Positions 30,967-56,081 of a stretch of 64,000 nt of DNA are shown piece after piece. The stretch comes from Sphingorhabdus sp. YGSMI21 (lineage in GTDB: Bacteria; Pseudomonadota; Alphaproteobacteria; Sphingomonadales; Sphingomonadaceae). The stretch covers positions 2,743,001 to 2,807,000 of the forward strand of contig NZ_CP022548.1 in assembly GCF_002776575.1 (NCBI RefSeq). Direction: 5' to 3'. The position numbers were made by a program, and so were the translations under genes. A model generated the notes under the pieces. It had not been told where the DNA came from, made no database searches, and saw only the letters and a list, made by a program, of their open reading frames with translations. Every line of letters starts with the position of its first letter. Position 1 is the stretch's first letter.

Positions 30967-32652
30967 ATGTCAATGACTGAAACCCACTCTGACCAGACAC
31001 CGATCTGGAAATCGCACTATAATCATCCCACGCCCTGGGACCAGTTCTATCCGCCCCTGACGATGCCCGGAATGTTCTTCCGCTCCGCTGGGCGGCGCGG
31101 GGACGCGAATCTGCTCGACTTCATGGGCCGCAAATATAGCTATGGCGAAGTGGCCGCCGGCGTGGTCCGTGTCGCCAAGGGGCTGCAGGAAATGGGCGTT
31201 GGCAAGGGCGACCGGATCGGCCTGTTCCTGCCCAATGTGCCCCATTATGTCAGTGCCTATTACGGCGCGATGGCAATCGGCGCGACGGTGGTCAACTTTT
31301 CGCCGCTCTATACGGTCGAGGAGCTCAACCACCAGGTCGAAGACAGCGGTACCAAAATCCTGTTCACGCTCTCGGCCACTGCATTATTCCCGACCGCCTA
31401 TCAGGTGCTCGAGCAATCGAGTCTCGAACGGCTGGTAGTGGGCAGCATTGCCGGCGCGCTGCCGGCGGGCAAGGCGCTTTTCTATTCGCTGTTCCGTCGC
31501 AAGGAGAGCAGCCCGCAGCCCGATGATGACCGGATCACCACCTTTTCCGACCTGATCGACAATGACGGCGTCTACAAGGCGCCCAATATCCGCCCGGACA
31601 AGGATATTGCGCTGCTGCAATATACTGGCGGCACCACCGGAACGCCCAAGGGCGCGATGTGCAGCCACCAGAATCTGACCGCCAACGCGCGGCAGATCAA
31701 CAATATCGATCCTTTCATCGACGAGACCGACCGGCTGATGGGCGTGCTGCCTTTCTTCCATGTCTTCGCCAATAGCGCGGTACTCAACCGCACGGTGGCG
31801 CGGGGTGGCGAAATCGTCATGCTGCCGCGCTTTGACGCAAAGCAGACATTGAAGGCGATCACCCGGACCAAGATCACCGCCATGCCGGGCGTGCCGACCA
31901 TGTACCAGGCACTGCTGGACCATCCCGATATCGACAAAACCGATTTCTCGTCGCTCAAGGTCTGCGTCTCCGGCGGCGCGCCACTGCCGATGGAGCTGAA
32001 AACAAAATTCGAGGCGAAAACCGGCGCCAAGCTGGTCGAGGGCTATGGCCTGACCGAAAGCTGCGGCGTGGTCAGCGCCAATCCCTATGAAGGACTCAAC
32101 AAACCCGGCACGATCGGCCAGCCGGTTCCGGGAACCCTCGTCAAACTGGTCGACAAGGCCGATCCGACCAAGCCGGCTCCGGACGGCGAACCGGGGGAAT
32201 TGATCTTCTCCGGTCCGCAGGTGATGCAGGGCTACTGGAACCTCCCGGAGGAGGACGAGAATGTATTTGTCGACGGTTTCCTGAGGACCGGCGATGTCGC
32301 GACCATCGACGAGGACGGCTATATAAAGATTGTCGATCGTCTGAAGGACATGATCGCCGTCGGCGGGTTCAAGGTTTTTCCGAGCCAGGTCGAGGAAGTG
32401 CTCTACAAGCATCAAGCGGTCAAGGAAGCGCTGGTGATCGGCGTTCCCGACGCCTATCGCGGGGAAAGTCCCAAGGCCTATGTCGCGCTGGAACCGGACA
32501 GCACAGTCAGCGGAGAAGAGCTGAAAGACTGGCTGAATCCGCAGCTTGGCAAGCATGAACGGGTGGTCGGTGTCGTGATCCGTGACAGTCTGCCCAAGAC
32601 CATGATCGGCAAGCTCGATCGCAAGGCGCTACGGACCGAGGAACTGGACTAG
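30967..32652 (+). CDS. Long-chain fatty-acid--CoA ligase
   Basis: This adenylate-forming enzyme of 561 residues activates fatty acids to acyl-CoA. The AMP-binding motif YTGGTTGTPKGA, the substrate-site GYGLTESCG, the GELIFSGPQVMQGYW block, the TGDVA hinge aspartate, and the catalytic C-terminal lysine region KTMIGKLDRKAL are all present. ATG 30967 (MSMTE) and 30973 are both possible starts. The gene is divergent from an exporter and convergent with a diguanylate cyclase. The lipoxygenase gene is 1.3 kb downstream, so supply or capture of oxidised fatty acids is a possible link (inference). Confidence 0.93.
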   Translation: MSMTETHSDQTPIWKSHYNHPTPWDQFYPPLTMPGMFFRSAGRRGDANLLDFMGRKYSYGEVAAGVVRVAKGLQEMGVGKGDRIGLFLPNVPHYVSAYYGAMAIGATVVNFSPLYTVEELNHQVEDSGTKILFTLSATALFPTAYQVLEQSSLERLVVGSIAGALPAGKALFYSLFRRKESSPQPDDDRITTFSDLIDNDGVYKAPNIRPDKDIALLQYTGGTTGTPKGAMCSHQNLTANARQINNIDPFIDETDRLMGVLPFFHVFANSAVLNRTVARGGEIVMLPRFDAKQTLKAITRTKITAMPGVPTMYQALLDHPDIDKTDFSSLKVCVSGGAPLPMELKTKFEAKTGAKLVEGYGLTESCGVVSANPYEGLNKPGTIGQPVPGTLVKLVDKADPTKPAPDGEPGELIFSGPQVMQGYWNLPEEDENVFVDGFLRTGDVATIDEDGYIKIVDRLKDMIAVGGFKVFPSQVEEVLYKHQAVKEALVIGVPDAYRGESPKAYVALEPDSTVSGEELKDWLNPQLGKHERVVGVVIRDSLPKTMIGKLDRKALRTEELD

Positions 32653-33834: not shown

Positions 33835-33999
33835 CCCGCGGTGCTAACGGCTAAATGTAAACGTCGCGTTAAGGGTGCTGACCGGTGTCGCATATCAGCT
33901 TGCAAGGGGCGTGCAGCAGATCCGGAAACCCCCCGTTTACGTCAAATTAACCACGAATGTTTTACATGATCCGGTCTGAAATCCAACGGGGGGGTCATC

Positions 34000-35979
34000 A
34001 TGTCCTTTGAAAATGCAAGCTCGATCATCGCAAGCCACACTATCACGGGGGAGGCGGTGAAGCGCGGCGCCAGCGACCCCAGCCTGCCGCAGAATGACAC
34101 GCCGGAGCAGCGCGCGCAGCGCCGGGCACAGATCAATGCGACATCGACGCAATATCAGTGGACGACCGATATCGCCAGCCTGCCAGGCGTGCCCCTGGCC
34201 ACGCATGTTCCGCCCGACGACCAGCCGTCGATCGAATGGTGGTTCAAGGTGCTCGAAGTCAGCATCGCCATACTCGAGAACGTCAAGGCGGTGCTGCTGA
34301 AACCGATCTATTCCGGTCTCGACGACGCGGCGAAGACAATCATTGACGACGCGCTGGCCGATGCCGGCGAGATCAGGTCGAAGGTAGAAGCCCTGCGCGA
34401 AAAACACCGTGTGGCCAAAGCCGGCCCCGGCCTCGAAAGCAGCATCGAGGAAGCGGTACAGGGCGCGGATATCGAGGAACTGAAATCGCATGACAGCGCC
34501 CTGCGCGACATTCTCACCGTGATCATCGATGTGCTGAAGGCCGAAGAGGCCGCGCATAGCCGTTCGATCGAGGCCTATCGCGATCTGTACCAGACGCTGC
34601 CGGTGCCCGGCATCGCCTATACATTCCAGGACGATGACCTATTTGCCCGCTTGCGGGTGGCCGGACCCAATCCGATGCTATTGCAGGGCATCGACCGGAT
34701 GCCCGACAATTTCCCGGTTACGGCAGCGCAATATGCTTCCGTCATGGGGGATGATACTCTTGCCAGAGCGCTTGCCGATGGCCGGGTTTTCCTGTGTGAT
34801 TACACGGACCTGGAGGTGCTTGTTGCGGGTGTCTGGAAAGGCCATGCGAAATATGTCTATCGGCCGATGGCTTTGTTCGCCGTGCCGCCGGGCGGATCGT
34901 CGCTCAAGGTGGTCGCGATCCAGTGCGGTCAGGACAATAGCCAATATCCGGTGATGACACCCTCGGATGCCGCGTCGGAAAAATGGGGCTGGGAAATGGC
35001 GAAATTCGTCGTCCAGGTCGCCGACTGCAACTATCATGAACTGTTCGTCCATCTGGCCGGTACCCATCTGGTCAGCGAGGCCATTGCCGTGGCGACCCGG
35101 CGCAATCTCGCCAATGTCCATCCGCTCTGGTCGCTGCTGGTGCCGCATTTCGAGGGCACATTGTTCATCAACAATCTGGCGGTCGAAACGCTGATCAACA
35201 AGGGCGGCCCGATCGACGATTTCTTTGGCGGAACGATCGAATCGAGCCAGCTTGCCGCCGTCCAGGCGCGTCTGGCCTTCGATTTCTACCAGAAAATGAC
35301 GCCGGTGGATTTTGCCGCGCGGAAGGTTGCCGATCCGGCGATCCTCCCGGACTATCCCTATCGCGATGATGCCTTGCTGGTCTGGGATGCTATCCACGAC
35401 TGGGCCTCGCAATATATCAACATCTATTACAGCGATGACGAGGCGGTGACCGCTGACAGCGAACTGGCGCTCTGGGCTTCCTCGATCGCGTCTGAGGGCC
35501 ATATCGTCGGTTTCCGGCCGATTACATCGCGCGCCCAGCTGATCGACGTCTGCACAATGATCATTTTTACTGCGAGCGCCCAGCATGCCGCGGTCAATTT
35601 TCCGCAACGCACGCTGATGACCTTTGCGCCGGCGGTAACCGGCGCGGGCTGGACCGCCGCCCCGACCGATCAAACGGGCCATGACAAGGGAGAATGGGTC
35701 GAATATATGCCGCCCATGTCCTTGGGATTGCTGCAGTTATCTTCGCTCGAACTGCTGGGCTCGGTCTATTACCGCCCGCTCGGCGACTATCGCACCAACC
35801 GCTTCCCCTACAAGCCTTGGTTCCAGGATCCGGTGATCACCGACGATGAGGGGCCGCTGGCGCGGTTCCAGGCCGGATTGCGGGCCGTGGAGGCGCGGAT
35901 CATCGCGCGCAACCAGCGGCGGATGCATCCCTATGTCTATCTCCAGCCCAGCCAGATTCCGACGAGCACCAATATCTAG
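34000..35979 (+). CDS. Lipoxygenase
   Basis: This non-heme iron dioxygenase of 659 residues inserts O2 into polyunsaturated fatty acids. The full ligand set is visible: His351 and His356 in HLAGTH, His529 and Asn533 in QHAAVN, and the C-terminal isoleucine Ile659 (ending STNI), whose carboxylate binds iron. The stretch from HPLWSLLVPHFEGTLFIN onward follows plant and animal enzymes closely. There is no PLAT/LH2 domain; the first 200 residues are helical, and no signal peptide is seen, unlike the secreted Pseudomonas enzyme. Start ATG 34000 lies behind AACGGGGGGG. Lipoxygenases are rare in bacteria. Confidence 0.93.
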   Translation: MSFENASSIIASHTITGEAVKRGASDPSLPQNDTPEQRAQRRAQINATSTQYQWTTDIASLPGVPLATHVPPDDQPSIEWWFKVLEVSIAILENVKAVLLKPIYSGLDDAAKTIIDDALADAGEIRSKVEALREKHRVAKAGPGLESSIEEAVQGADIEELKSHDSALRDILTVIIDVLKAEEAAHSRSIEAYRDLYQTLPVPGIAYTFQDDDLFARLRVAGPNPMLLQGIDRMPDNFPVTAAQYASVMGDDTLARALADGRVFLCDYTDLEVLVAGVWKGHAKYVYRPMALFAVPPGGSSLKVVAIQCGQDNSQYPVMTPSDAASEKWGWEMAKFVVQVADCNYHELFVHLAGTHLVSEAIAVATRRNLANVHPLWSLLVPHFEGTLFINNLAVETLINKGGPIDDFFGGTIESSQLAAVQARLAFDFYQKMTPVDFAARKVADPAILPDYPYRDDALLVWDAIHDWASQYINIYYSDDEAVTADSELALWASSIASEGHIVGFRPITSRAQLIDVCTMIIFTASAQHAAVNFPQRTLMTFAPAVTGAGWTAAPTDQTGHDKGEWVEYMPPMSLGLLQLSSLELLGSVYYRPLGDYRTNRFPYKPWFQDPVITDDEGPLARFQAGLRAVEARIIARNQRRMHPYVYLQPSQIPTSTNI

Positions 35980-36019: not shown

Positions 36020-37312
36020 TCAGTCCGGGCTGCGCGCTGCCAAAATGCGCTTGTTTCGTTTCTCTACCGCCAGAAATGCCTTGAAAACGCCCAGATTCGG
36101 GTCGGTTTTGCCGCTTTTGCCCAGACTTTCAAGCTGTTCGTAGAACCAGAAAATGACCGCGAAACTGGCGACCGCCTTGACCATCTGGAAGCGCATGAGA
36201 AAGCCCAGCCAGCCGGGGAGCAGGTGCAGCCTGTCCTCGAACCGCGGCAATGCTTCCAAGTCTTCCAATAAACGTTTCGGCGCGTCGGTCATGACGCACA
36301 TCGGGCGGCCCAGGCCGATCAGGTCGGCGGCACCGCTGGAAAGCGCGGATTCCATCGCTTTGCGGGTCCGGAACCCGCCGGTCACCATCAGCGGCACCTT
36401 GACCGCATCCTGCATCGCCTTGGCAAAATCGACGAAATAGGCCTCGCGCGCCTTGGTCGACGGTGCGACATTCTGCTCCTCTTTTTCCTCGATTCCGTCG
36501 GACCCCATCAGCGCGGGCTGTTCATAGGTGCCACCGGAGATTTCCACCAGATCGACGCTGGCTTCCTCCAGCCAGCGGAGCACTTGCAAACTGTCCTCGA
36601 AATTGAACCCGCCCTTCTGGAAATCAGCGCTGTTCAGCTTCACCGAGATCGGGAAATCCGGCCCGACCGCAGCGCGGGTCTTGGCCACCACCGCCAGCAG
36701 GAACCGCGCCCGGTTTTCCAGACTGCCGCCATATGCGTCGGTTCTCTGGTTGGACCGGGGGCTCAGGAAGCTGCTGAGCAGATAGCCGTGGGCGGCGTGG
36801 ATCTGCGCGCCCGTGAAGCCGGCTGCCTGACAGGTTTTGGCGGCCAGGGCGAAGCGGTCGACCAGATCTTCAATCTCTTCAATCGTCAGCGCCACCGGCT
36901 CGCCAAACTGGCCTCCGGGCAGGCCCAGCTTGACCGCCGACGGGGCCTTGGGATGTTTGTTGACATTGCTCTGTGTCTGTCGCCCGGCGTGGCTGATCTG
37001 CGCCCAGAAATGATTGCCATTGCGCGTTGCCGCCTGTGCCCAGCTGGTGAGTGCTGCCATCATGGCGTCATCCGCCGGCCGGTCGATGACCACATTGCCC
37101 GGCCGCTCCAGATGGTCGCGGTCAACCTGGATATTGCCGCTGAGCAGCATCCCGGCGCCGCCGTCGGACCACAGGCCGTACAATCGTTCCAGTTCCCTGG
37201 TCGGCACGCCGTCCGGCGTTGCTATGCCTTCGGTCATCGCCGCCTTGGCGAGCCGGTTGGGCAGGGTGGCTCCACAGGGAAGCAACAGCGGATCGGAAAG
37301 CGACATGGTCAT
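36020..37312 (-). CDS. NADH:flavin oxidoreductase / Old Yellow Enzyme family reductase
   Basis: This FMN-dependent ene-reductase has 430 residues. Family marks are LPNRLAKAAMTEG, WAQISHAGRQT, the active-site pair in AQIHAAHGYLLSSFLSP, TDAYGGSLENRARFL, and the FMN phosphate site LMVTGGF...LIGLGRPM. The C-terminal 60 residues (FLMRFQMVKAVASFAVIFWFYEQL) form an extra hydrophobic helix not found in the basic barrel. Minus-strand ATG 37312 is used; the upstream extension to 37630 is low-complexity and rejected. Old Yellow Enzymes include plant 12-oxophytodienoate reductases, which gives a possible link to the adjacent lipoxygenase (inference). Confidence 0.92.
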   Translation of the reverse strand: MTMSLSDPLLLPCGATLPNRLAKAAMTEGIATPDGVPTRELERLYGLWSDGGAGMLLSGNIQVDRDHLERPGNVVIDRPADDAMMAALTSWAQAATRNGNHFWAQISHAGRQTQSNVNKHPKAPSAVKLGLPGGQFGEPVALTIEEIEDLVDRFALAAKTCQAAGFTGAQIHAAHGYLLSSFLSPRSNQRTDAYGGSLENRARFLLAVVAKTRAAVGPDFPISVKLNSADFQKGGFNFEDSLQVLRWLEEASVDLVEISGGTYEQPALMGSDGIEEKEEQNVAPSTKAREAYFVDFAKAMQDAVKVPLMVTGGFRTRKAMESALSSGAADLIGLGRPMCVMTDAPKRLLEDLEALPRFEDRLHLLPGWLGFLMRFQMVKAVASFAVIFWFYEQLESLGKSGKTDPNLGVFKAFLAVEKRNKRILAARSPD

Positions 37313-37361
37313 GATAGGGCCCCGGATTTGGATTGCGTTTGAAAACTGATTCTGTCCCATG

Positions 37362-37396
37362 CGGAAATATTTGGCAAGCGGAACCGCATATTTCCG
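37362..37396. promoter_or_regulatory. Inverted repeat upstream of the ene-reductase gene
   Basis: CGGAAATAT (37362-37370) and ATATTTCCG (37388-37396) are perfect 9-base arms; an inner GCGG-AA-CCGC lies between. It is 50 bases before the ene-reductase start and could be a TetR/MarR-type operator or an mRNA leader hairpin. Confidence 0.45.
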
Positions 37397-37518
37397 ACAT
37401 AATGTGGTGGAAAACCGATTATTTGGCTTTTCGAATAAATAGCGTATAGTGTTGTCGAAGGATCGTGCGGGGGCAAACTTCGACGATGGCCGGAGATGAA
37501 ATTCTGAGGGGAATGGAA

Positions 37519-37911
37519 ATGGTCGCAACAGCGTCTCGAAAATCGGTAAGCAAACATCATGCGCGTCAGGACGTGCAGCATCAGAGCGTCCGCTGGGACA
37601 AGAAGATGAGCAACAACTGCGCCGCAGCATTGCTGGTCTATACCATATTGCAGATATTCGTCGTTTTGCGCTTCATCGAGACCAAAGGCATGTCGATCGC
37701 TCCCTATTTCGGCCTGATCCTCCTCGTCGCCGTTATCATCCCCTTTTGCCGCAATTTCGAAAAGCGCTGGTCGGACATGAGCAGCAGCGGCCTGACCGAG
37801 CAAAGCCTCGCGGCAAAATTTCGCGCGGACCAGTCGCTCCTATGGCTCCTGGCTGTGGGCCTGCCGTTTCTATTCGTCGGCCTGATCGCCGGATTTGGCG
37901 CGATCCTCTGA
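37519..37911 (+). CDS. Small inner-membrane protein of unknown function
   Basis: The 130-residue protein has a basic, polar N-terminus (TASRKSVSKHHARQ), two membrane helices close together (about CAAALLVYTILQIFVVLRFI and IAPYFGLILLVAVIIPF), a charged loop, and a third helix at the C-terminus (LLWLLAVGLPFLFVGLIAGF). No family is recognised. ATG 37519 is placed by GAGGGG seven bases upstream; ATG 37513 is an alternative. It is divergent from the ene-reductase gene, with the inverted repeat at 37362-37396 between them. Confidence 0.7.
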   Translation: MVATASRKSVSKHHARQDVQHQSVRWDKKMSNNCAAALLVYTILQIFVVLRFIETKGMSIAPYFGLILLVAVIIPFCRNFEKRWSDMSSSGLTEQSLAAKFRADQSLLWLLAVGLPFLFVGLIAGFGAIL

Positions 37912-39445: not shown

Positions 39446-40234
39446 TTGGCTGACATTGATTTTGACCGGGTTATCGCGATCGCCAAGGAAGGCGGGGCGC
39501 TGGCCATGCGGCACTGGGCGCTAGGCAAGAAAGAAGCCAATATCTGGGAGAAATCCCCCGGTCAGATTGTTAGCGATGCCGATCTCGCGGTTGACAGTTT
39601 CCTCCGCGCAGAGCTGGAAAAGCTGGTGCCATCCGCCGGTTGGCTTTCCGAGGAAACCCATATCGACCATAGCGGGGCCGGTGATGAATTGACCTGGGTG
39701 GTCGATCCGATTGACGGGACCAAGGATTATGTCGCGGGCAAGACCGGCTGGTGCGTATCAATTGCCCTCGTCCAGAATGATGCGCCGATATTCGGAGTGC
39801 TCGATGCGCCGGCGATGCGGGAAACCTGGGTCGCCAGGGCCGGCAGCCATACCGAGGTCAATGGCCGAAAGCTGGTCGCCAGCTTGCGGTCCCAATATGA
39901 CGGTTGCCGCATCCCCGCCGAAAGCTTGCCGCCGGACATGAAGTTCACCATTGTGCCAAAGCCGAACAGCATCGCGCTGCGCATGGCGATGGTCGCGGAT
40001 GACCGGGCCGACGTCGTCGCCTCGACGCGCTGGGGCCATGAGTGGGATATCGCCGCCGCCCATGTTATCGCCACCGAAGCAGGAGCCAGCGTCACCGATG
40101 CGCTGGGCGAACCGCTGGTCTATAACGGCACCCACGGCAAGGCGCTCGGAGTATTATGCTGTTCGCAAAACCTCTATCAGGAGGCGGTGCAGCGGATTGG
40201 CAAATATGTCACCGAAAATGGTGCCAGCCACTAA
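39446..40234 (+). CDS. Inositol monophosphatase family phosphatase (CysQ / histidinol-phosphatase-like)
   Basis: The Mg-dependent phosphatase of 262 residues has the metal motifs GWLSEET, WVVDPIDGTKDYVAG and HEWDIAAAHVIATEAGA. The family covers inositol-1-phosphatase, 3'-phosphoadenosine-5'-phosphatase (CysQ) and HisN-type histidinol phosphatase; the sequence alone does not separate these. The start is TTG 39446, with ACGGAGAC upstream and no better ATG in frame. The gene ends tail-to-tail with crtB: its TAA at 40232-40234 overlaps the crtB stop at 40231-40233, leaving no room for a terminator. Confidence 0.87.
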   Translation: MADIDFDRVIAIAKEGGALAMRHWALGKKEANIWEKSPGQIVSDADLAVDSFLRAELEKLVPSAGWLSEETHIDHSGAGDELTWVVDPIDGTKDYVAGKTGWCVSIALVQNDAPIFGVLDAPAMRETWVARAGSHTEVNGRKLVASLRSQYDGCRIPAESLPPDMKFTIVPKPNSIALRMAMVADDRADVVASTRWGHEWDIAAAHVIATEAGASVTDALGEPLVYNGTHGKALGVLCCSQNLYQEAVQRIGKYVTENGASH

Positions 40235-41166
40235 GCCAGACTGGTAATTCGGGCTCTCGTCCACAAGCCCTGGCGGTCGCGCCGGGCCGAATTGACCAGT
40301 GCCTGACCAAAAGCTTTCACGATCCAGCCCAGTTTCTTGCCTTTGCTCGTATAGATGCGGCGCTCGAGAGACGCACCGTTGCTCTGGCTGATCGCTCGGG
40401 CAATATCCCCGTAGATGCCTGCCGCGGCCAGCACCGCCCAGCGCGACCGGAACGGCAGGCTGGTTGCGCCGACGCGCGCGGACGCTTCATATTCACCGGC
40501 CAGATCGCAGAGCCGGTTCACCAGACCAACCAGTGCATCCCGGTGCGCCGAGTCCAGTATATGGTCCGGATCAATGCCGGCTTGCGCGAGCCAGTTTTTC
40601 GGCAGATAGCAGCGGCCGGCCTGCGCGTCCTCGGCCACGTCGCGGGCGATATTGGCGAGCTGGAACGCCAGTCCCAGATCGCAGGCGCGGTCCAGAACCT
40701 CTTGATCCCGAGCCGACACGCCCATCACCACCGCCATCATGCAGCCGACCGCGCCGGCGACATGATAGCAATATTGGAACAGGTCCTCTTCCGTGCCCGG
40801 CCGCCATCCGCGGGCATCCAGCGCGAAGCCGTCGATCATGTCATCGGCAAAATATTTGGGAATATGACATTCCTGCGCGACCACGCCAAAGGCGTCGAAC
40901 GGCGGATTGCCGGTCTGCTCGCCGCCATGGGCGCGGGTGGTCATCATCCGCATTGCCGCGATCGTCTTGACCGGCTTGTGCACGGTCGACATGCCGTGGC
41001 CATGGTCCTGGCCATCGGCCAGATCGTCGCAGGCACGGCACCAGTAATAGAGCAGCCACGCCCGTTCGCGGGTCTGTTTCGAAAACAGCTTCGAGGCCCG
41101 GGCAAAGGACTTCGATCCGCGCTCGATGCTGCTTCTGGCGTGCAGGACAAGATTGGCGCGATTCAT
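40231..41166 (-). CDS. crtB: Phytoene synthase
   Basis: CrtB condenses two geranylgeranyl diphosphates to phytoene, the first committed carotenoid step. Both Asp-rich motifs are present: DDLAD near residue 47 and NIARDVAED near 170. The family stretch GRCYLPKNWL follows the second. Its 311 residues are a normal length. It is the third gene of the crtY-crtI-crtB operon on the minus strand, 100 bases after crtI; that gap holds a fragment of the dispersed repeat. The geranylgeranyl diphosphate synthase gene crtE is not in the window. Confidence 0.96.
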   Translation of the reverse strand: MNRANLVLHARSSIERGSKSFARASKLFSKQTRERAWLLYYWCRACDDLADGQDHGHGMSTVHKPVKTIAAMRMMTTRAHGGEQTGNPPFDAFGVVAQECHIPKYFADDMIDGFALDARGWRPGTEEDLFQYCYHVAGAVGCMMAVVMGVSARDQEVLDRACDLGLAFQLANIARDVAEDAQAGRCYLPKNWLAQAGIDPDHILDSAHRDALVGLVNRLCDLAGEYEASARVGATSLPFRSRWAVLAAAGIYGDIARAISQSNGASLERRIYTSKGKKLGWIVKAFGQALVNSARRDRQGLWTRARITSLA

Positions 41167-41233
41167 GACGGCAACGAGGGGAGAGCCGCTGGCGCCGGGC
41201 CGGTCAAAGCGCGCCTGGTGAGGAAAAACCGTC

Positions 41234-41256
41234 TTTCGACCGGCTCAGGACGAACG
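41234..41256. repeat. Single copy of the dispersed CTGAGCC-type repeat
   Basis: The stretch TTCGACCGGCTCAGGACGAA lies in the crtI-crtB gap and matches, in reverse orientation, the unit found repeatedly near 57.1 and 62.0 kb. Confidence 0.7.
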
Positions 41257-41266
41257 GACGCGTAAT

Positions 41267-42778
41267 TCACGCCATATCCTCCAGCATCAGCTCTGCGGTC
41301 GCCTTGGCGCTGCCCACCACACCGGGAATGCCCGCGCCCGGATGGGTGCCGGCGCCGACAAAATAGAGATTGTCGATGATATCATCGCGGTTGTGCACCC
41401 GGAACCAGGCGCTCTGGGTGAGCAGGGGCTCCAGGCTGAACGCGCTGCCGAGATGGGCGTTGAGATCACTGCCGAAATCCTGCGGCGTGTAATGAAAACT
41501 GGTGACGATCCGGTCGTGGATATCGGGGATCAGGCGGTGGCCGATTTCGTCGAGAATTCGCTTCTCGTAGATCGGACCCATCTCCTCCCAGTCGATCGGC
41601 AGCTTGCCCTGATGCGGCACTGGCGCCAGGACATAGAAGGTGCTGTGCCCCTCGGGCGCCATTTCCGGATCGGTGACCGTCGGATGGTGGAGATAGAGCG
41701 AGAAGTCGCTGGGCAGCACGCCATTGTCGTAAATATCGTCGAGCAGGCCTTTGTAGCGCGGCCCGAACAGGATCATATGGTGCGGTATGCCCGGCCAGCT
41801 GCCCTTCACGCCAAAATGGACGACGAACAGCGATGGCGAATATTTTTTCTTCTGCAGCTTCGCGGTCACGGTCCTACTGCGATGTTTGTGACCGAGCAGA
41901 TCGCGATAGCTGTGCATCACATCGGCGTTCGAGGCGACCGCATCAAAGCGCTCGCTCCAGCCCGATTTGCAGGTGACGCCGGAGGCGCGGTCACCGATCG
42001 TGTCAATCTTGGTCACCGGATCGTCGAGCCGGATCACCCCGCCGATCCGTTCGAAATGCTTGACCATCGCGGTGACCAGCATATTGGTTCCGCCCTTGGC
42101 AAACCAGACGCCGCCGAGCCGTTCCAGCTTGTGGATCAGGCCGTAGATCGCGCTGGTCTTCATCGGATTGCCGCCGACCAGCAGCGACTGGAAAGACAGG
42201 AATTCGCGCAGTTTCTCGTTTTTCACAAAGCCCGAAACCTTGGAATAGACCGAGCGATAGGCCTCATATTTCATCAGCGCAGGGGCCGCCTTGATCATCG
42301 ACTTGAAATCGAGAAACGCCTTGGTGCCCAGCTTGACATAGCCTTCCTCGTACAGCCCGCCGCTATATTCGAGGAATTTCTTGTACCCCTCGACATCATC
42401 CGGCTCGATCGCCGCGATATTGGCGTAAAGCTTTTCGGGATCGTTGACATAATCGAAATTCGTGCCGTCCGGCCAGTTGAGCCGGTAGAAGGGCGATACC
42501 GGCATCAGTTCGATGTCTTTTGCCATGTCATGGCCGGTCAAATCCCATAGCTGCGAAAGACAGTCGGGATCGGTGATGACAGTCGGTCCGCCGTCAAAGA
42601 TAAAGCCTTCCTTTTCCCAATAATAAGCGCGTCCGCCCGGCTTGTCGCGGCCTTCCAATATAGTCGTCTGGATGCCGGCCGACTGCAGCCGGATGGCGAG
42701 CGCCAGGCCACCGAAGCCGGAACCGATTACGGCGGCTTTTTTGAACAATTCGCTCTGGGATTTTGCAACTTCACTCAT
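41267..42778 (-). CDS. crtI: Phytoene desaturase
   Basis: CrtI is an FAD enzyme converting phytoene to lycopene by four desaturations. The N-terminal dinucleotide site is KAAVIGSGFGGLALAIRLQS, followed by LEGRDKPGGRAYYW. The C-terminal carotenoid-desaturase signature is YFVGAGTHPGAGIPGVVGSA. Length (503) is typical. It begins 13 bases after the crtY stop and precedes crtB, so the three genes form one transcript read toward lower coordinates. The final product depends on genes outside this operon. Confidence 0.97.
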   Translation of the reverse strand: MSEVAKSQSELFKKAAVIGSGFGGLALAIRLQSAGIQTTILEGRDKPGGRAYYWEKEGFIFDGGPTVITDPDCLSQLWDLTGHDMAKDIELMPVSPFYRLNWPDGTNFDYVNDPEKLYANIAAIEPDDVEGYKKFLEYSGGLYEEGYVKLGTKAFLDFKSMIKAAPALMKYEAYRSVYSKVSGFVKNEKLREFLSFQSLLVGGNPMKTSAIYGLIHKLERLGGVWFAKGGTNMLVTAMVKHFERIGGVIRLDDPVTKIDTIGDRASGVTCKSGWSERFDAVASNADVMHSYRDLLGHKHRSRTVTAKLQKKKYSPSLFVVHFGVKGSWPGIPHHMILFGPRYKGLLDDIYDNGVLPSDFSLYLHHPTVTDPEMAPEGHSTFYVLAPVPHQGKLPIDWEEMGPIYEKRILDEIGHRLIPDIHDRIVTSFHYTPQDFGSDLNAHLGSAFSLEPLLTQSAWFRVHNRDDIIDNLYFVGAGTHPGAGIPGVVGSAKATAELMLEDMA

Positions 42779-42791
42779 CGAATAATCAAAC

Positions 42792-43964
42792 TCATCTATA
42801 TTTCAGCAAAAGCGGGATTGCGCGGGAAACGGGAATGGGCGGTTTGCCGGTCAACAGGCTGATCTGATCCATCTTGGTCGACTTTCCGGCATAGAAACGG
42901 GCGAGCAATTGCTCGTCTTTGGCATAGGTATGTTCCAGTGTCTTGTAACGTTTATCCAGGTCAGCGCCAAGAAACAGGAAGGCGCATAGCAGCCGGTAGA
43001 ATTTCCCATTTTTCCAGTGCTCCGTCGCCAGATCGCGCAGCATCTTGTCGAGAGAGCTCTGGTTGATCTCCGGCATTTCTGCAATGAGCATCGCGGTCCG
43101 GACCGCCATCGGCAGGGAGTAGCTGGTGATCGGCTGGATCAGCGCCGCCCGCGCCCCGGCACGTGCATCAAGGTCCCCGTTGGCCTTCCAGAAAGCATCA
43201 AAATCGCCGCCGTAAATGACCGGAAGCCGGCCCTTCTCCTCGCTCAGCACCGCTTCGACTTCCCATCCCCGGGCCGCGGCATATTCGGCGATCCGGCCAT
43301 GGGAAGTCGCGCTGTCGAGATCGGGCGTGTCGGCATAATAAGTGTCTTCGACAAAAACCTCGGTGTCACTGAACGGCAGGCAATAGATGAAGCGATAGCC
43401 GTCAATCTGCTTGACCGTTGCGTCCATGATCACAGGCCGTTCCAGCCCGTGGGGCTTGCCCAGCTTCAGCATCTGACCGAAAAATTTCTGCCATCCGGTC
43501 TCCAGCGCCGATATATCGCCGCCGCCGCGGACATCCAGCACGGCCTGTGCCGCAATCACGGTGTCATTGGCCAGTTTGACCCTGCCGCTTTCGACTGTCT
43601 CCGCCCGCTGCCCCGTGATCAAGGATTCCGGCGGCAATCGCTTCCGCAATTCGCTGTCGAGATTGGCCGACTCTATCGAGAAATAGCCATTGGCCAAAGT
43701 GCGGCTATATTTCGGGAAATGCACGTCATAGCTGTCCCACTGGCGCGAGATCAGCGGATCGACCAGCCAGCGATGCTCCGGCTCGATGTCGCTTTCGAAA
43801 AAGGACCAGATATGATTGCCACCGAACCGGTTATCCGCCTCGATCAGCGCGATTTTCAGCTCCGGCCGCAATTTCGCCAGAGCGAGGGCAACCAGTCCGC
43901 CCGCCAGACCGCCGCCAGCAATCGCCAGATCATATTGGAGGGAGGAGGGCGCTTTCTTCGGCAT
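42792..43964 (-). CDS. crtY: Lycopene beta-cyclase
   Basis: CrtY closes beta rings on lycopene to give beta-carotene. The protein of 390 residues has the N-terminal FAD-type fingerprint YDLAIAGGGLAGGLVALAL, followed by RFGGNHIWSFFESD, typical of the bacterial CrtY group. A second conserved block is LPFSDTEVFVEDTYYAD, and GARAALIQPITSYSLP lies near the C-terminus. It is the first gene of crtY-crtI-crtB, its start 110 bases from that of the divergent hydroxylase gene. A small palindrome lies in the shared upstream region. Confidence 0.96.
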   Translation of the reverse strand: MPKKAPSSLQYDLAIAGGGLAGGLVALALAKLRPELKIALIEADNRFGGNHIWSFFESDIEPEHRWLVDPLISRQWDSYDVHFPKYSRTLANGYFSIESANLDSELRKRLPPESLITGQRAETVESGRVKLANDTVIAAQAVLDVRGGGDISALETGWQKFFGQMLKLGKPHGLERPVIMDATVKQIDGYRFIYCLPFSDTEVFVEDTYYADTPDLDSATSHGRIAEYAAARGWEVEAVLSEEKGRLPVIYGGDFDAFWKANGDLDARAGARAALIQPITSYSLPMAVRTAMLIAEMPEINQSSLDKMLRDLATEHWKNGKFYRLLCAFLFLGADLDKRYKTLEHTYAKDEQLLARFYAGKSTKMDQISLLTGKPPIPVSRAIPLLLKYR

Positions 43965-44074: not shown

Positions 44075-44839
44075 ATGAACCATGCGCTTCCCGTGCTGAT
44101 CTCTGCCATTGCGATGACGCTCATCGTCGGCGGGCGCTATCTGCTGAGCAGCGGCTTTTTTGCCTGGCTGACGGGCCGGGTGCGGCCGGGCTATTATGGA
44201 AAACTGAAACCCCAGATCGGCCGTGAAATCCGCTGGTCGCTGCTGTCTGCTGCGATTTATGGCGTGCCCGCCGGAATCGTCGCCTGGGGCTGGCAGAACG
44301 AGGGCTGGACCAGAATCTATACCGACCCCGGCGCCTATCCACTATGGTATCTGCCGCTGTCCTTCTTTCTTTATCTGTTCCTGCACGACACATGGTTCTA
44401 CTGGACCCACCGGCTGTTCCACCGGCCGCGCTGGTTCAAGGTCGCCCATGCGGTCCACCATGACAGCCGGCCACCAACCGCCTGGGCGGCGATGAGCTTT
44501 CATCCGGTCGAAGCGATCAGCGGAGCGGTCGTCATCCCGGCTCTGGTAATCGCGATCCCGATTCACGTCGGCGTTTTGGGTTTGGTATTGCTGACCATGA
44601 CGGTTATGGGCGTATCCAATCATATGGGATGGGAAATGTTTCCGCATTGGCTGGTGCGCGGGCGATTGGGCCAGTGGCTGATCACCGCGACCCACCATGA
44701 GAAACATCATGAGGCATATCGAGGTAATTATGGGTTATATTTTCGCTTCTGGGACAGGATTTGCGGCACCGACATCGGGCTTGCGGACATCGGGAGCAGC
44801 TTTGGTGCTGCTGCTCGGGGCAAGCGCGACGGCGAGTGA
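44075..44839 (+). CDS. Sterol desaturase / fatty acid hydroxylase family membrane enzyme
   Basis: This integral-membrane di-iron enzyme of 254 residues has the eight-histidine pattern of the ERG3-like family: HDTWFYWTHRLFH, HAVHHDS and THHEKHH, set among about five membrane helices. It is not of the CrtZ type, whose motifs differ. It stands next to, and divergent from, the carotenoid operon, so ring hydroxylation of a carotenoid is possible, but lipid hydroxylation is equally likely. Its last 110 bases overlap the DUF2141 gene in another frame. The catalytic block ends with YGLYFRFWDRICGTD, so the overlapped tail (about 20 residues) is probably dispensable. Confidence 0.9.
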   Translation: MNHALPVLISAIAMTLIVGGRYLLSSGFFAWLTGRVRPGYYGKLKPQIGREIRWSLLSAAIYGVPAGIVAWGWQNEGWTRIYTDPGAYPLWYLPLSFFLYLFLHDTWFYWTHRLFHRPRWFKVAHAVHHDSRPPTAWAAMSFHPVEAISGAVVIPALVIAIPIHVGVLGLVLLTMTVMGVSNHMGWEMFPHWLVRGRLGQWLITATHHEKHHEAYRGNYGLYFRFWDRICGTDIGLADIGSSFGAAARGKRDGE

Positions 44840-45239: not shown

Positions 45240-45309
45240 TCGGCGGGAAATTAACCGTTACCTAGGACTCTCGCGGCATTCTGCCACGACAGGCTAGGAG
45301 TTGCGTATA

Positions 45310-46689
45310 ATGTATCAGTCCAGACAAGCGTTTTTCAACCAGAATGACGGGGGCGAACAGTCGCGCCTGTCGGAAATTCTCGGTGCCTTTTCCTACGCGC
45401 TGGATCTGACCGAGGGGCAGCCCGCCGGCCACAGTATCCGCTGTTGCTGGGTCGGCACGCAAATCGCGATGGCGCTGGGCTTGAAGGGCGACAGTTTGCG
45501 CGATGTCTATTATGCAGTGCTGCTCAAGGATCTCGGTTGCAGCAGCAACGCGGCTCGGGTCAGCGAACTGTTCGTCGGTGACGACAGGAAACTGAAACAG
45601 GGCTTCAAACTGGTCGGTTCCCGTCCCGAGGATCTGGGCGAATATCTGGCCGTCGCGGTCGGCGTCGATGCGGCAGCCGATGTACGCGAGCGGGCGCTCG
45701 GCAATCTCGCCGAAAATGGCGGTGCGATCATGACCGAAATGATGGCGACCCGTTGCGAGCGTGGGGCCGATATCGCCCGGCAATTGCGCTTTTCCGAAGA
45801 TGTTGCCGAGGCGATTTCGCATCTCGACGAACATTGGGATGGCGGCGGCCTGCCGCTTGGCATCGCCGGTTCCGATATCCATCTCGGCGGCCGCATTGCG
45901 CTCCTGGCGCAGGTTGCCGATGTTTTCTACAGCGCCAGGGGCAGGGACGCCGCGCTGGCCGAAATCCGCAATCGCGCCGGAAGCTGGCTCGACCCGCAGC
46001 TCTGCGCGCTGTTCGAGAAACTGTCCGAAGCGAGCGGCTTCTGGGACGAACTGGCGCTCGACGATCTGCCCGAACAATTATGGGCGCTTGAGCCGGCTGC
46101 CCAGGATATCGTGGTCGACGAGGATTATCTCGACGATATCAGCGCCGCCTTCGGACAGGTGATCGATGCCAAAAGCCCGTTTACCGCCGGTCACAGCAAG
46201 CGGGTCGGGCTGATCGCCGACAGGATTGCCGAAAAACTCGGGCTGGACGATCATCGCCGCCGGGTGCTGCGCCGGGCCGCAACCTTGCACGACGTCGGGA
46301 AACTGGGCGTCAGCAGCGCTATTCTGGAAAAGCCGGGCAAGCTGGATGCAGAGGAGTGGCAGGCCATGCAGGACCATGCCGAACATACGACCAATATCCT
46401 GAGCCAGATCGGCGTGATGAGCGAAATGGCCATGATCGCCGGATCGCATCACGAACGGCTCGATGGCAAAGGTTATCCGCTGGGTCTGGACGAACGCAGC
46501 ATCGCGATGGAATCGCGGATCATCACGGTTGCGGATATCTATGACGCGCTGACCGCGGACCGGCCCTATCGCGCCGCCATGCCACCGGAAAGGGCCATGG
46601 CGATATTGCAGGATGAAGTGGGCAAAGCAGTGGACGGGCAATGTTTCAGCGCGCTGCAGGCTGTCATCGAACAGGGGCTGGCGGAATAG
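45310..46689 (+). CDS. Tandem HD-domain protein, second domain HD-GYP
   Basis: The 459-residue cytosolic protein contains two related HD domains. The second (about 285-455) is complete, with HDVGKLGVSSAI and HHERLDGKGYPLGL, the HD-GYP hallmark of cyclic di-GMP phosphodiesterases. The first (about 15-240) has the same layout but a degenerate site: the HD pair reads KD (LLKDLGCSSN) and the HHExxDGxGYP block has become LDEHWDGGGLPLG. It may act as a regulatory or dimerisation half. ATG 45310 follows AGGAG at 45296-45300; the TTG at 45301 is too close to that site. It precedes a MipA-like gene by 96 bases. Confidence 0.9.
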   Translation: MYQSRQAFFNQNDGGEQSRLSEILGAFSYALDLTEGQPAGHSIRCCWVGTQIAMALGLKGDSLRDVYYAVLLKDLGCSSNAARVSELFVGDDRKLKQGFKLVGSRPEDLGEYLAVAVGVDAAADVRERALGNLAENGGAIMTEMMATRCERGADIARQLRFSEDVAEAISHLDEHWDGGGLPLGIAGSDIHLGGRIALLAQVADVFYSARGRDAALAEIRNRAGSWLDPQLCALFEKLSEASGFWDELALDDLPEQLWALEPAAQDIVVDEDYLDDISAAFGQVIDAKSPFTAGHSKRVGLIADRIAEKLGLDDHRRRVLRRAATLHDVGKLGVSSAILEKPGKLDAEEWQAMQDHAEHTTNILSQIGVMSEMAMIAGSHHERLDGKGYPLGLDERSIAMESRIITVADIYDALTADRPYRAAMPPERAMAILQDEVGKAVDGQCFSALQAVIEQGLAE

Positions 46690-50351: not shown

Positions 50352-50458
50352 CTCCATTCCCCGGGGAGTCGTTTGACTGAGAGGGGCGCGTAACGTCGCC
50401 CGACCCGCAGAACCTGATCCGGCCCCGCTCGTGCGGGCTTACCGGCGTAGGGAGGGAG
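50352..50458 (+). ncRNA. TPP riboswitch (thi element)
   Basis: The leader contains the conserved cores of the thiamine pyrophosphate aptamer: GGGGAGTC, CTGAGAG, ACCC, GAACCTGATC and CCGGCGTAGGGA, in the right order. Extra stems GGGGCG/CGCCC-like and CCCCGC-TCGT-GCGGG fit P3a and P5. The closing P1 helix is likely formed by TCCC near 50358 and GGGA near 50450. The SD AAGGAGA (50504-50510) of the next gene can pair with TCTCC (50489-50493), and that TTTCTCC can alternatively pair with GGAGGGAG at the aptamer end, so control is probably at translation initiation. Confidence 0.93.
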
Positions 50459-50516
50459 CGGTTATTTGGGCATCCCGGATACGCTCTTTCTCCATCAGGA
50501 CAGAAGGAGAGACGCG

Positions 50517-50940: not shown

Positions 50941-52833
<1,893 letters not shown>

Positions 52834-53696: not shown

Positions 53697-54713
53697 ATGG
53701 CAAATCCGCGTGTCTTTGTTAGCTCAACGTGTTACGACTTGAGATATATTAGGGAAAATCTTCAATATTTCATAAAAACATTGGGGTATGAACCAATTCT
53801 AAGTGAAGAGGGTAACGTTTACTACGACCCACAAATCCATGTCCAAGATGCTTGCTTAACGGAAATTCCAAACTGTCAAATGCTAGTTTTGATTATTGGT
53901 GGTCGTCACGGAAGTGACTTCAAATCTGAAAAAACATCGATTACCAATCATGAGTTTCGTGAAGCGATTAAAAACAAAATTCCAATTTTTGCTTTGGTTG
54001 AACAAGCGGTATTGGGAGATTACTATCTATATAGAGAAAATTTAAACAACGGCAGTATCAAAGAAGACTCTATAAGGTATCCAAACGCAGATAGCACTCG
54101 GATTTTCAAATTTATCGATGAAGTTCAAAGTTCAACGGTGAACAACGCACTTGTTCCATTCCGCGATTTCAATGACATCGAAAATTATCTCCGGCAACAG
54201 TGGGCTGGCATGCTTTTTAGTTTTTTAATTCAAAAAAATCAACAAGATAAGGTAGAGGGAACTCTTGATGTGCTGACCACTATAAGCAGTCGAGTAGAAA
54301 TGCTGTCGAGTCAGATTCTTAAATCAGTGGGCACTCCAATCGCGAAGATCACAGCGACACTGTATGATTTGATGCTAGAAGATGAAGGAATTCGGGATTT
54401 GGCTTTTATGGGCGCGAGGCCAAGGCCGGAGCATATTCTTAAATACGGCAGTTACCGAATTTGCTTCAAAGCGATCAAAGGAAAAGCTTTGCGAATTGAA
54501 GACGATGAGGATGAAGATGGCAATCCTTCTTACAGTGTCGGCGGCGATGGTTCTATTTCAAAAGCAAGGTTCAATAGAAACTCGAACCAGTATGAAGAGC
54601 TAAGAAAAAAAATGATCGACGTTTTGGAGGAAGGGGAAGTGCAATTGGAGCAATATCTACTTGAAGCAAGTCAAGGTTTGGATGCTCTCATAGAATTAGA
54701 AGATGAGGCCTGA
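53697..54713 (+). CDS. DUF4062 protein (TIR-like N-terminus)
   Basis: The protein of 338 residues begins with the DUF4062 pattern NPRVFVSSTCYDLRYIRENL, GYEPILSEEGNVYYDP, and LVLIIGGRHGS...SITNHEF. DUF4062 is regarded as related to TIR/SLOG-type nucleotide-handling domains and is often found in conflict or signalling systems. The C-terminal half (about 190-338) is helical and acidic, without a known effector domain. Start ATG 53697 follows AAAGGTG. The gene is strongly AT-rich compared with the rest of the window. With the flanking motif copies and the IS element just downstream it is probably acquired. A defence role is inferred, not shown. Confidence 0.88.
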   Translation: MANPRVFVSSTCYDLRYIRENLQYFIKTLGYEPILSEEGNVYYDPQIHVQDACLTEIPNCQMLVLIIGGRHGSDFKSEKTSITNHEFREAIKNKIPIFALVEQAVLGDYYLYRENLNNGSIKEDSIRYPNADSTRIFKFIDEVQSSTVNNALVPFRDFNDIENYLRQQWAGMLFSFLIQKNQQDKVEGTLDVLTTISSRVEMLSSQILKSVGTPIAKITATLYDLMLEDEGIRDLAFMGARPRPEHILKYGSYRICFKAIKGKALRIEDDEDEDGNPSYSVGGDGSISKARFNRNSNQYEELRKKMIDVLEEGEVQLEQYLLEASQGLDALIELEDEA

Positions 54714-54733
54714 TCACAATTTAGGAAATACCT

Positions 54734-54746
54734 GAGTTACGGTGAG
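54734..54746 (+). repeat. Partial GTTACGGTGA motif copy left of the IS element
   Basis: GAGTTACGGTGAG matches the core of the motif repeated at 56199-56282. It lies 21 bases after the DUF4062 stop and just before the IS insertion site. Confidence 0.5.
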
Positions 54747-54751
54747 GGGCA

Positions 54752-54759
54752 AAACAACC
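54752..54759 (+). repeat. Target site duplication, left copy
   Basis: AAACAACC immediately precedes the left end of the IS and is repeated identically at 56082-56089. Confidence 0.9.
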
Positions 54760-56081
54760 GGGAGTGTCATAAATTCCGTGTGTCGTGGGGCATAATGGGT
54801 AAAAAGGAGTCCCACTATGTCACGACGCAAAGAGCCGACGATCCCGGCAGGTTTACTGGATCAACTTTTAGCAGGCACCGATGCAGCTTCTGCGCTGGAT
54901 CAGGGAGGATTGCTGGATTCGCTGAAGAAGGCGCTCGCCGAACGGGCGCTGAATGCCGAGATGGATTATCATCTGGGCGGCGACGAACAGGCTGGTAACA
55001 GCCGCAACGGCTATGGCCGCAAGCGTGTCATCACCGATAGCAGCAAGATCGAGATCGAGGTGCCGCGCGATCGCGCTGGTAGCTTTAATCCGCAGTTGAT
55101 CGCTAAATACCAGCGCCGGTTTCCCGGTTTTGATGATAAAATTATCTCCATGTATGCGCGCGGGATGAGCACGCGGGAGATAACCGGGCATTTGCGTGAG
55201 CTATACGGCATCGACGTATCGCCTGACCTGATCTCGACCGTCACCGACGGTGTTTTGGAGGAAGTTACCGCCTGGCAGCAGCGCCCGCTTGATCCGGCCT
55301 ATCCGCTGGTATTTTTTGACGCCATTCGCGTTAAGATCCGCGATGAAGGCATGGTCCGCAGCAAAGCTATCCATATCGCTCTTGGCGTCCGCGCCGATGG
55401 CCGCAAAGAGGTTCTCGGCCTGTGGATCGAACAAAATGAAGGTGCCAAATTCTGGCTGCGGGTCATGAATGAGCTTAAAAACCGCGGCACCGAGGACATC
55501 ATGCTGGCCGTTGTTGACGGTCTCAAGGGATTTCCTGATGCGATAACAGCGGTGTTCCCTGAAGCTGTCGTCCAGACATGCATCGTCCATCTGCTACGTA
55601 ACAGCATGGATTTTGTGGCATGGAAAGATCGCAAGCCGCTGGCGGCAGCCCTCAAGGCCATTTACCGCGCTGTTGATGCCAAGGCTGCCGAGGACGCGCT
55701 GACTGCTTTTGAAGCCAGCGAATGGGGTCTGCGTTATGCCGCCATCGCCCAGAGCTGGCGGCGGGCATGGAATGAAGTTATTCCATTCTTCGCCTTTCCC
55801 GAGGCGGTACGCAAAATCATCTACACGACGAATGCTATCGAAGCCCTGAACTCAAAGCTCAGACGGGCAGTCAGGGCCAGAGGGCACTTCCCCAATGACG
55901 AGGCGGCAACGAAATTGCTCTATCTGGTCTTGAACAGATCAGAAAAAGAGTGGAGAATGCCACCACGTGAGTGGACCATGGCAAAGGCCCAGTTCGCAGT
56001 TATCTTCGGCGAACGCTTCATCAAAGCCATGGCGGCATAATGTCTAACAGCCCCACGACACACGGAATTTATGACACTCCC
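54760..56081 (+). mobile_element. Complete IS256-family insertion sequence (1322 bp)
   Basis: The element is bounded by perfect 32-bp inverted repeats (54760-54791 and 56050-56081; outermost bases GGGAGTGTCATAAATTCCGT) and flanked by 8-bp direct repeats AAACAACC. It encodes one full-length transposase. Perfect ends and an intact target duplication imply recent insertion and probable activity. It landed 46 bases after the DUF4062 stop, in a GTTACGGTGA-rich intergenic stretch. Only one copy is in the window. Confidence 0.95.
54817..56040 (+). CDS. IS256-family (mutator-type) transposase
   Basis: The transposase of 407 residues has the DDE arrangement of the IS256/Mutator family. The first Asp is in VFFDAIRVKIRD and the second in LAVVDGLKGFPDAI. 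The family box is TCIVHLLRNSM, and the catalytic Glu is in the YTTNAIEALNSKLRR signature. The N-terminal region (RNGYGRKRV, ISMYARGMSTREITGHL) matches the DNA-binding part. The ribosome site AAAAAGGAG precedes ATG 54817. It is intact, with no frameshift. Confidence 0.96.
   Translation: MSRRKEPTIPAGLLDQLLAGTDAASALDQGGLLDSLKKALAERALNAEMDYHLGGDEQAGNSRNGYGRKRVITDSSKIEIEVPRDRAGSFNPQLIAKYQRRFPGFDDKIISMYARGMSTREITGHLRELYGIDVSPDLISTVTDGVLEEVTAWQQRPLDPAYPLVFFDAIRVKIRDEGMVRSKAIHIALGVRADGRKEVLGLWIEQNEGAKFWLRVMNELKNRGTEDIMLAVVDGLKGFPDAITAVFPEAVVQTCIVHLLRNSMDFVAWKDRKPLAAALKAIYRAVDAKAAEDALTAFEASEWGLRYAAIAQSWRRAWNEVIPFFAFPEAVRKIIYTTNAIEALNSKLRRAVRARGHFPNDEAATKLLYLVLNRSEKEWRMPPREWTMAKAQFAVIFGERFIKAMAA

Follow-up and report, generated by a model that had tools for sequence, protein, structure and literature searches.

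The lipoxygenase and cyclase genes at the locus

The window analysed here, a stretch of 64,000 nucleotides from Sphingorhabdus sp. YGSMI21, carries a lipoxygenase gene and, diverging from it, a gene for a predicted membrane diguanylate cyclase (Table 1). The lipoxygenase open reading frame matched the Pfam model PF00305 with 213.7 bits (E 6.4e-63, curated cut-off 23.6), and its five iron ligands, His351, His356, His529, Asn533 and Ile659, lie exactly where the preliminary description had placed them. They align with residues 377, 382, 555, 559 and 685 of the Pseudomonas aeruginosa lipoxygenase (PA-LOX or LoxA; structures 4g32 and 5ir5). Among 56 aligned lipoxygenase rows, the three ligand histidines are invariant, the asparagine and the C-terminal isoleucine are retained in 55, and alanine occupies the stereo-control (Coffa) position in all, Ala394 in the window protein. 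The meaning of this position, and exceptions to the rule, are set out in an excerpt of PMC6612559. The structure model has the lipoxygenase fold, superposing on PA-LOX at 1.6 Å over 616 residues, nearly the whole length, with 44% sequence identity. Compared with six relatives, dN/dS is 0.06-0.14, indicating purifying selection on the gene. From its sequence, we conclude that the frame is a true bacterial lipoxygenase gene of an established type, ordinary as regards the enzyme it encodes.

Table 1 Features of the lipoxygenase-cyclase locus, numbered from the first nucleotide of the window
Feature	Position	Strand	Remarks
Acyl-CoA ligase gene (FadD-like), left flank	30967..32652	+	Genus core gene, outside the proposed module
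Membrane diguanylate cyclase gene, 386 aa	32674..33834	-	N-terminal helical membrane domain and GGDEF domain; GGDEF motif intact
Shared divergent intergenic region, 165 bp	33835..33999		Divergent arrangement in 33/33 loci
CtrA-like site by the cyclase start	33858..33872	-	TTAA-N7-TTTA (minus-strand sequence)
CtrA-like site upstream of the lipoxygenase	33936..33950	+	TTTA-N7-TTAA; 49 bp to the ATG
Lipoxygenase CDS	34000..35979	+	659 aa, ATG start, intact; no signal peptide or PLAT match
Codons of iron ligands His351 and His356 (HLAGTH)	35050..35067	+	Residue read-out, alignment
Codon of Ala394, stereo-control (Coffa) position	35179..35181	+	Alignment with PA-LOX Ala420
Codons of iron ligands His529 and Asn533	35584..35598	+	Residue read-out, alignment
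Codon of C-terminal iron ligand Ile659	35974..35976	+	Residue read-out, alignment
Old-yellow-enzyme-type oxidoreductase gene, right flank	36020..37630	-	Outside the proposed module; true start probably later than in the longest ORF

The cyclase matched PF00990 with 141.8 bits, and the GG[D/E]EF motif is intact in all 36 aligned cyclase rows. By eye, the window protein has no RxxD inhibition site. Its structure model (mean pLDDT 85.0, pTM 0.60) combines membrane helices with a GGDEF domain; the best whole-length fold match is P. aeruginosa ImcA (TM 0.65-0.67, rmsd 5-6 Å, 22-23% identity), a six-helix membrane diguanylate cyclase to which we liken it by fold. In an excerpt of PMC10904736, its authors describe six membrane-spanning segments for ImcA. 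From domain and motif, the neighbour is predicted to be a diguanylate cyclase that synthesizes c-di-GMP. About 9 kb from the pair, the window also encodes an HD-domain protein (45301-46689; PF13487, HD_5), possibly a c-di-GMP phosphodiesterase of the HD-GYP type. Elsewhere in the window lie consecutive carotenoid genes crtB, crtI and crtY (40231-43964) with a fatty-acid-hydroxylase-family gene at 44075-44839, an ordinary TPP riboswitch (50352-50470) upstream of thiC (50944-52833), and a gene for a DUF4062 protein followed by a Mutator-family transposase gene (53697-56040).

Cellular location and relatives of the lipoxygenase

The absence of a signal peptide, reported in the preliminary description, was confirmed: only 10 codons separate the upstream in-frame stop from the lipoxygenase ATG, with no strongly hydrophobic stretch among them, and therefore a longer start cannot supply a signal peptide. 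Signals were called by a simple rule of our own, a hydrophobic stretch after a basic residue, in place of a dedicated signal-peptide program. By this rule, a signal is absent from 118 of the 120 nearest relatives of the window lipoxygenase, and the two exceptions resemble an internal stretch and a wrong start. The signal-less state is thus a trait of the sphingomonad clade and not a peculiarity of this gene. Under the same rule, the 120 nearest relatives of PA-LOX, some of them short or truncated rows, comprise 81 with an RR-type signal, 4 with an R-type signal and 35 with none. PA-LOX itself has an RR-type signal and, according to an excerpt of the 2024 review PMC11011848, is periplasmic or secreted, whereas the window enzyme, which has no signal, is predicted to be cytoplasmic. 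The lack of a PLAT domain was likewise borne out, since no PLAT model matched the open reading frame, but it does not set the protein apart. PA-LOX also has no PLAT domain, and the model of the window protein can be aligned with PA-LOX over nearly its full length, the N-terminal part included.

In a quick tree of lipoxygenase rows, none of them eukaryotic, the window lipoxygenase falls in a sphingomonad group, sister to the PA-LOX clade of Pseudomonas, Burkholderia, Variovorax and Rhodococcus (SH-aLRT 99). Bit scores against PA-LOX (546) and human ALOX15B (208) make the nearest solved relatives bacterial, and the G+C content around the gene is even; a recent transfer from a eukaryote is therefore unsupported, on a tree without eukaryotic rows. 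That lipoxygenases are rare in bacteria at large agrees with our samples, in which 4 of 398 genomes of the phylum and 3 of 385 of the class carry one, the window genome being included in both. This rarity does not extend to the genus, where the family is common (13 of 32 genomes).

Among characterized enzymes, an arachidonate 9S-lipoxygenase of Sphingopyxis macrogoltabida (Kim et al. 2022) is already published and is mentioned in an excerpt of PMC10487465. Like the window protein it is a sphingomonad lipoxygenase. Ten Sphingopyxis-named proteins occur among the 120 relatives listed, nine of them 57-58% identical to the window protein and the tenth, from a MAG, 82%; the simple rule called no signal in any of the ten. 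The lipoxygenase of Enhygromyxa salina (8x8f) comes from a myxobacterium, of another phylum-level group than the window organism.

Several lipoxygenase loci deserve mention in their own right. A second, divergent type of sphingomonad lipoxygenase (31-32% identity), with an RR-type signal and no cyclase alongside, was found at L075 (genome G007, contig C45) and L076/L138 (genome G162); G007 has both types. Two tandem lipoxygenase genes lie at L129 (genome G1124, contig C36), in another family of the same class. At L029/L077 (genome G331), an in-frame TAG interrupts the lipoxygenase gene, which is possibly in the process of loss, while the cyclase gene still adjoins it. On a Rhodococcus qingshengii plasmid (L050), the lipoxygenase gene lies immediately 3' of an acyl-ACP thioesterase-domain gene, a neighbour that may hint at a supply of free fatty acids.

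Conservation and joint gain or loss of the divergent pair

A GGDEF gene lies divergently adjacent to the lipoxygenase gene in all 33 signal-less sphingomonad loci, with 122-241 bp between the BLAST hits. These loci represent one per genome with a signal-less lipoxygenase, 13 from the genus and 20 from elsewhere; the remaining family genome, G162, has a Tat-type lipoxygenase only and stands outside the set. By contrast, the divergent GGDEF neighbour was found in none of 10 other lipoxygenase loci, namely 5 plasmid records (of 8 matches), 2 Tat-type sphingomonad paralogues and 3 genomes of other families. The plasmid record examined for PA-LOX has no cyclase alongside, unlike the window. One of the ten, L078 (genome G770; lipoxygenase 30% identical), has a partial GGDEF match convergently downstream. 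Clustering of the flanking genes resolved 9 separate gene contexts among 32 pair loci, the short contig L003 being omitted. Within the genus most flanking genes are conserved too, whereas outside it none of ten other window genes tested remains beside the pair.

Within the genus, presence and absence of the two genes coincide. With orthology set at 500 bits or more, a cyclase orthologue (61-100% identity) was found in all 13 lipoxygenase-positive genomes and in none of the 19 negative ones, where the best match reached at most 186 bits and several matches, of up to 41% identity, covered the GGDEF domain alone. The 32 genus genomes include 7 that are less than 90% complete and 1 further genome with 7% contamination. 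The FadD region was read in six negative genomes. In three of these (G011, G012 and G015, which are 89, 82 and 67% complete), only 57-181 bp of a single contig separate FadD from the old yellow enzyme gene, and the lipoxygenase and cyclase genes are both absent from between them, leaving an empty site; in the other three, no old yellow enzyme gene was found within the fetched FadD stretch. Joint absence and the three empty sites therefore indicate that lipoxygenase and cyclase were gained or lost together, as a piece of about 3.3 kb.

The empty sites also bear on the flanking genes. Acyl-CoA ligases and old yellow enzymes are both families of the plant jasmonate pathway, and together with the lipoxygenase the two flanking genes could be read as a jasmonate-like oxylipin cluster, with the old yellow enzyme in the place of a 12-oxophytodienoate reductase. 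Indeed, both flank the pair in 12 of the 13 genus loci, with some 3 kb of additional sequence next to FadD in L005. Against this, FadD is present in 31 of the 32 genus genomes by a strict cut-off, whatever their lipoxygenase status; neither flanking gene lies beside the lipoxygenase in L011, L012 or L061, and their retention beside it was looked for in other genera and not found. The empty sites reveal both as background genes outside the proposed module, and we accordingly reject a single jasmonate-like pathway, which we regard as scarcely credible.

Beyond the genus, the relation between the two genes is one-sided. A search with the cyclase membrane domain (residues 1-205) matched 59 of 397 family genomes, among them all 23 with a signal-less lipoxygenase (E 1.6e-32 or better); the other 36 have no signal-less lipoxygenase, and many of their matches are weak. 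In the 12 strongest of the latter genomes, the solo cyclases stand in varied contexts, next to housekeeping genes, genes for other enzymes and unknowns. No other oxygenase was found beside them among 20 neighbouring ORFs scanned, 6 of which have no Pfam match. In the cyclase tree, which has several long branches, solo and paired rows are interleaved with 7 changes, as would fit a lipoxygenase lost more than once. The cyclase thus accompanies each of the signal-less sphingomonad lipoxygenases seen, and the converse is false.

These observations weigh on another account of the arrangement, a frozen accident in which two unrelated genes, bound by overlapping promoters, travelled together on a short segment, by inheritance or by transfer. 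Both control sites do lie inside the one 165-bp region, and the pair was gained or lost as a single piece of about 3.3 kb. Yet the solo cyclases show that the genes can be separated, the cyclase is missing from none of the 33 loci, and both genes are under purifying selection, so that we consider such an accident quite improbable. In the open-licence literature, we found no description of a lipoxygenase paired with a diguanylate cyclase. We conclude that the finding here is the gene pair and not the enzyme itself: what is unusual is the conserved cyclase partner, the shared control region and the empty sites, on all three of which the preliminary description was silent.

Shared control region and proposed function

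Each of the two CtrA-like sites in the window departs from the consensus TTAA-N7-TTAA by one mismatch. Excerpts of PMC6180460 and PMC11264516 give this consensus for CtrA, with working sites one base off and activating sites near -35, and an excerpt of PMC2877005 reports the CckA-ChpT-CtrA relay as conserved in Sphingomonadales. Across the 33 intergenic regions (about 6 kb between hits), 48 one-mismatch sites were counted, where mononucleotide shuffles predict 2.4. All but one of the 33 regions contain such a site, and the other non-coding DNA of the loci (43 kb) holds 6. Alignment of 12 intergenic regions of the genus revealed two conserved blocks, GTAAA-N6-GTTAA on the cyclase side and TTTAC-N6-TTAAC on the lipoxygenase side, one region (L010) deviating from the latter. 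Only in the genus of the window does the site on the lipoxygenase side occur regularly (12 of 13 loci). Of the 12 solo cyclases, 8 are likewise preceded by a CtrA-like site, at most 220 bp away, so that the site on the cyclase side may be part of that gene's own promoter and no more.

Over the whole genome, exact matches to TTAA-N7-TTAAC number 7, fewer than the 33 of the reversed control, and TTTAC-N6-TTAACC occurs 5 times versus 2 for its control. One exact match precedes, by 113 bp, a gene for a sigma-54 activator, whose match to the FlbD model (272 bits) is below the cut-off of 750; the other genes near exact sites are mixed. The exact pattern is not over-represented, and in this genome it is a weak marker of known CtrA targets. 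A scan for promoters and terminators was uninformative, with 1 promoter-like site against a shuffle mean of 1.6 and 3 terminator-like sites against 2.2. From the sites in the shared region, we regard CtrA as one candidate regulator of both genes, which it would control by binding between them.

We hold it somewhat probable that the lipoxygenase and the divergent membrane cyclase form a two-gene module for lipid oxidation and c-di-GMP, run as one co-regulated programme. The shared 165-bp region with its CtrA-like sites leads us to infer that both genes belong to one motility or surface-attachment programme. One half of this module would be a PA-LOX-like lipoxygenase with non-heme iron, located in the cytoplasm and most likely adding O2 to polyunsaturated fatty acids to yield an S-hydroperoxide, a product predicted from the complete set of ligands, the fold shared with PA-LOX and the alanine at the stereo-control position. 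It would handle fatty acids that enter the cell, with algae or other hosts as possible sources, and the other half would convert the state of the lipids into a c-di-GMP output. The window genome has nine FA_desaturase-family matches (L151-L159), none of them shown to make polyunsaturated fatty acids, and the substrate could thus also be home-made.

Both genes could instead serve the same surface lifestyle under common control and act separately, the enzyme detoxifying, modifying or helping to degrade exogenous polyunsaturated fatty acids and sending no lipid signal to the cyclase. The shared control region with its CtrA-like sites is consistent with this account, as are the existence of same-type cyclases without a lipoxygenase and a cytoplasmic location, which fits intracellular lipid handling. 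Joint presence and absence in the genus and the retention of the pair in 9 contexts suggest more than co-regulation, however, and FadD and the old yellow enzyme gene have not been retained beside the pair outside the genus. We therefore view separate action as possible but on the doubtful side.

A stronger form of the module hypothesis is a lipid-to-c-di-GMP switch, in which the cytoplasmic lipoxygenase would act as the sensor and the membrane cyclase would be controlled either by the oxylipin so formed or by the iron enzyme itself when loaded with lipid. We put this forward tentatively, as rather unlikely. A precedent for control of a cyclase by a partner exists: according to an excerpt of PMC10904736, ImcA is inhibited by direct contact with its partner IsmP, and iron relieves the inhibition. 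IsmP, a GGDEF-EAL protein of the membrane, detects iron via a CHASE4 domain, whereas the partner of the window cyclase is a lipoxygenase; the analogy illustrates such control and is not evidence that a lipoxygenase exerts it. Bacterial oxylipins have likewise been tied to surface life in P. aeruginosa, where they promote biofilm, with c-di-GMP named in the discussion (excerpt of PMC5155153). Those oxylipins come from diol synthase activity and not from a lipoxygenase, and the excerpt mentions no cyclase gene pair. More generally, experimental data on bacterial lipoxygenases are scarce, and a role of oxylipins in multicellular structures is unconfirmed, as stated in an excerpt of PMC11011848. 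Our search of the open-licence literature found no lipoxygenase tied to second-messenger signalling. If the switch is real, it would be, to our knowledge, the first case of a lipoxygenase connected to a bacterial second messenger, and sphingomonads would use it to attach to algae and other surfaces, or to depart from them, depending on which polyunsaturated fatty acids they encounter.

Returning to the two-gene module, a cytoplasmic lipoxygenase kept beside one type of cyclase suggests a testable function, connecting oxidised lipids with attachment or motility. The occurrence of positive and negative genomes in one genus (13 of 32 positive), together with the empty sites, offers ready-made comparisons. 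The recurrence of the pair across a bacterial family hints that surface attachment and oxidised lipids may be connected.
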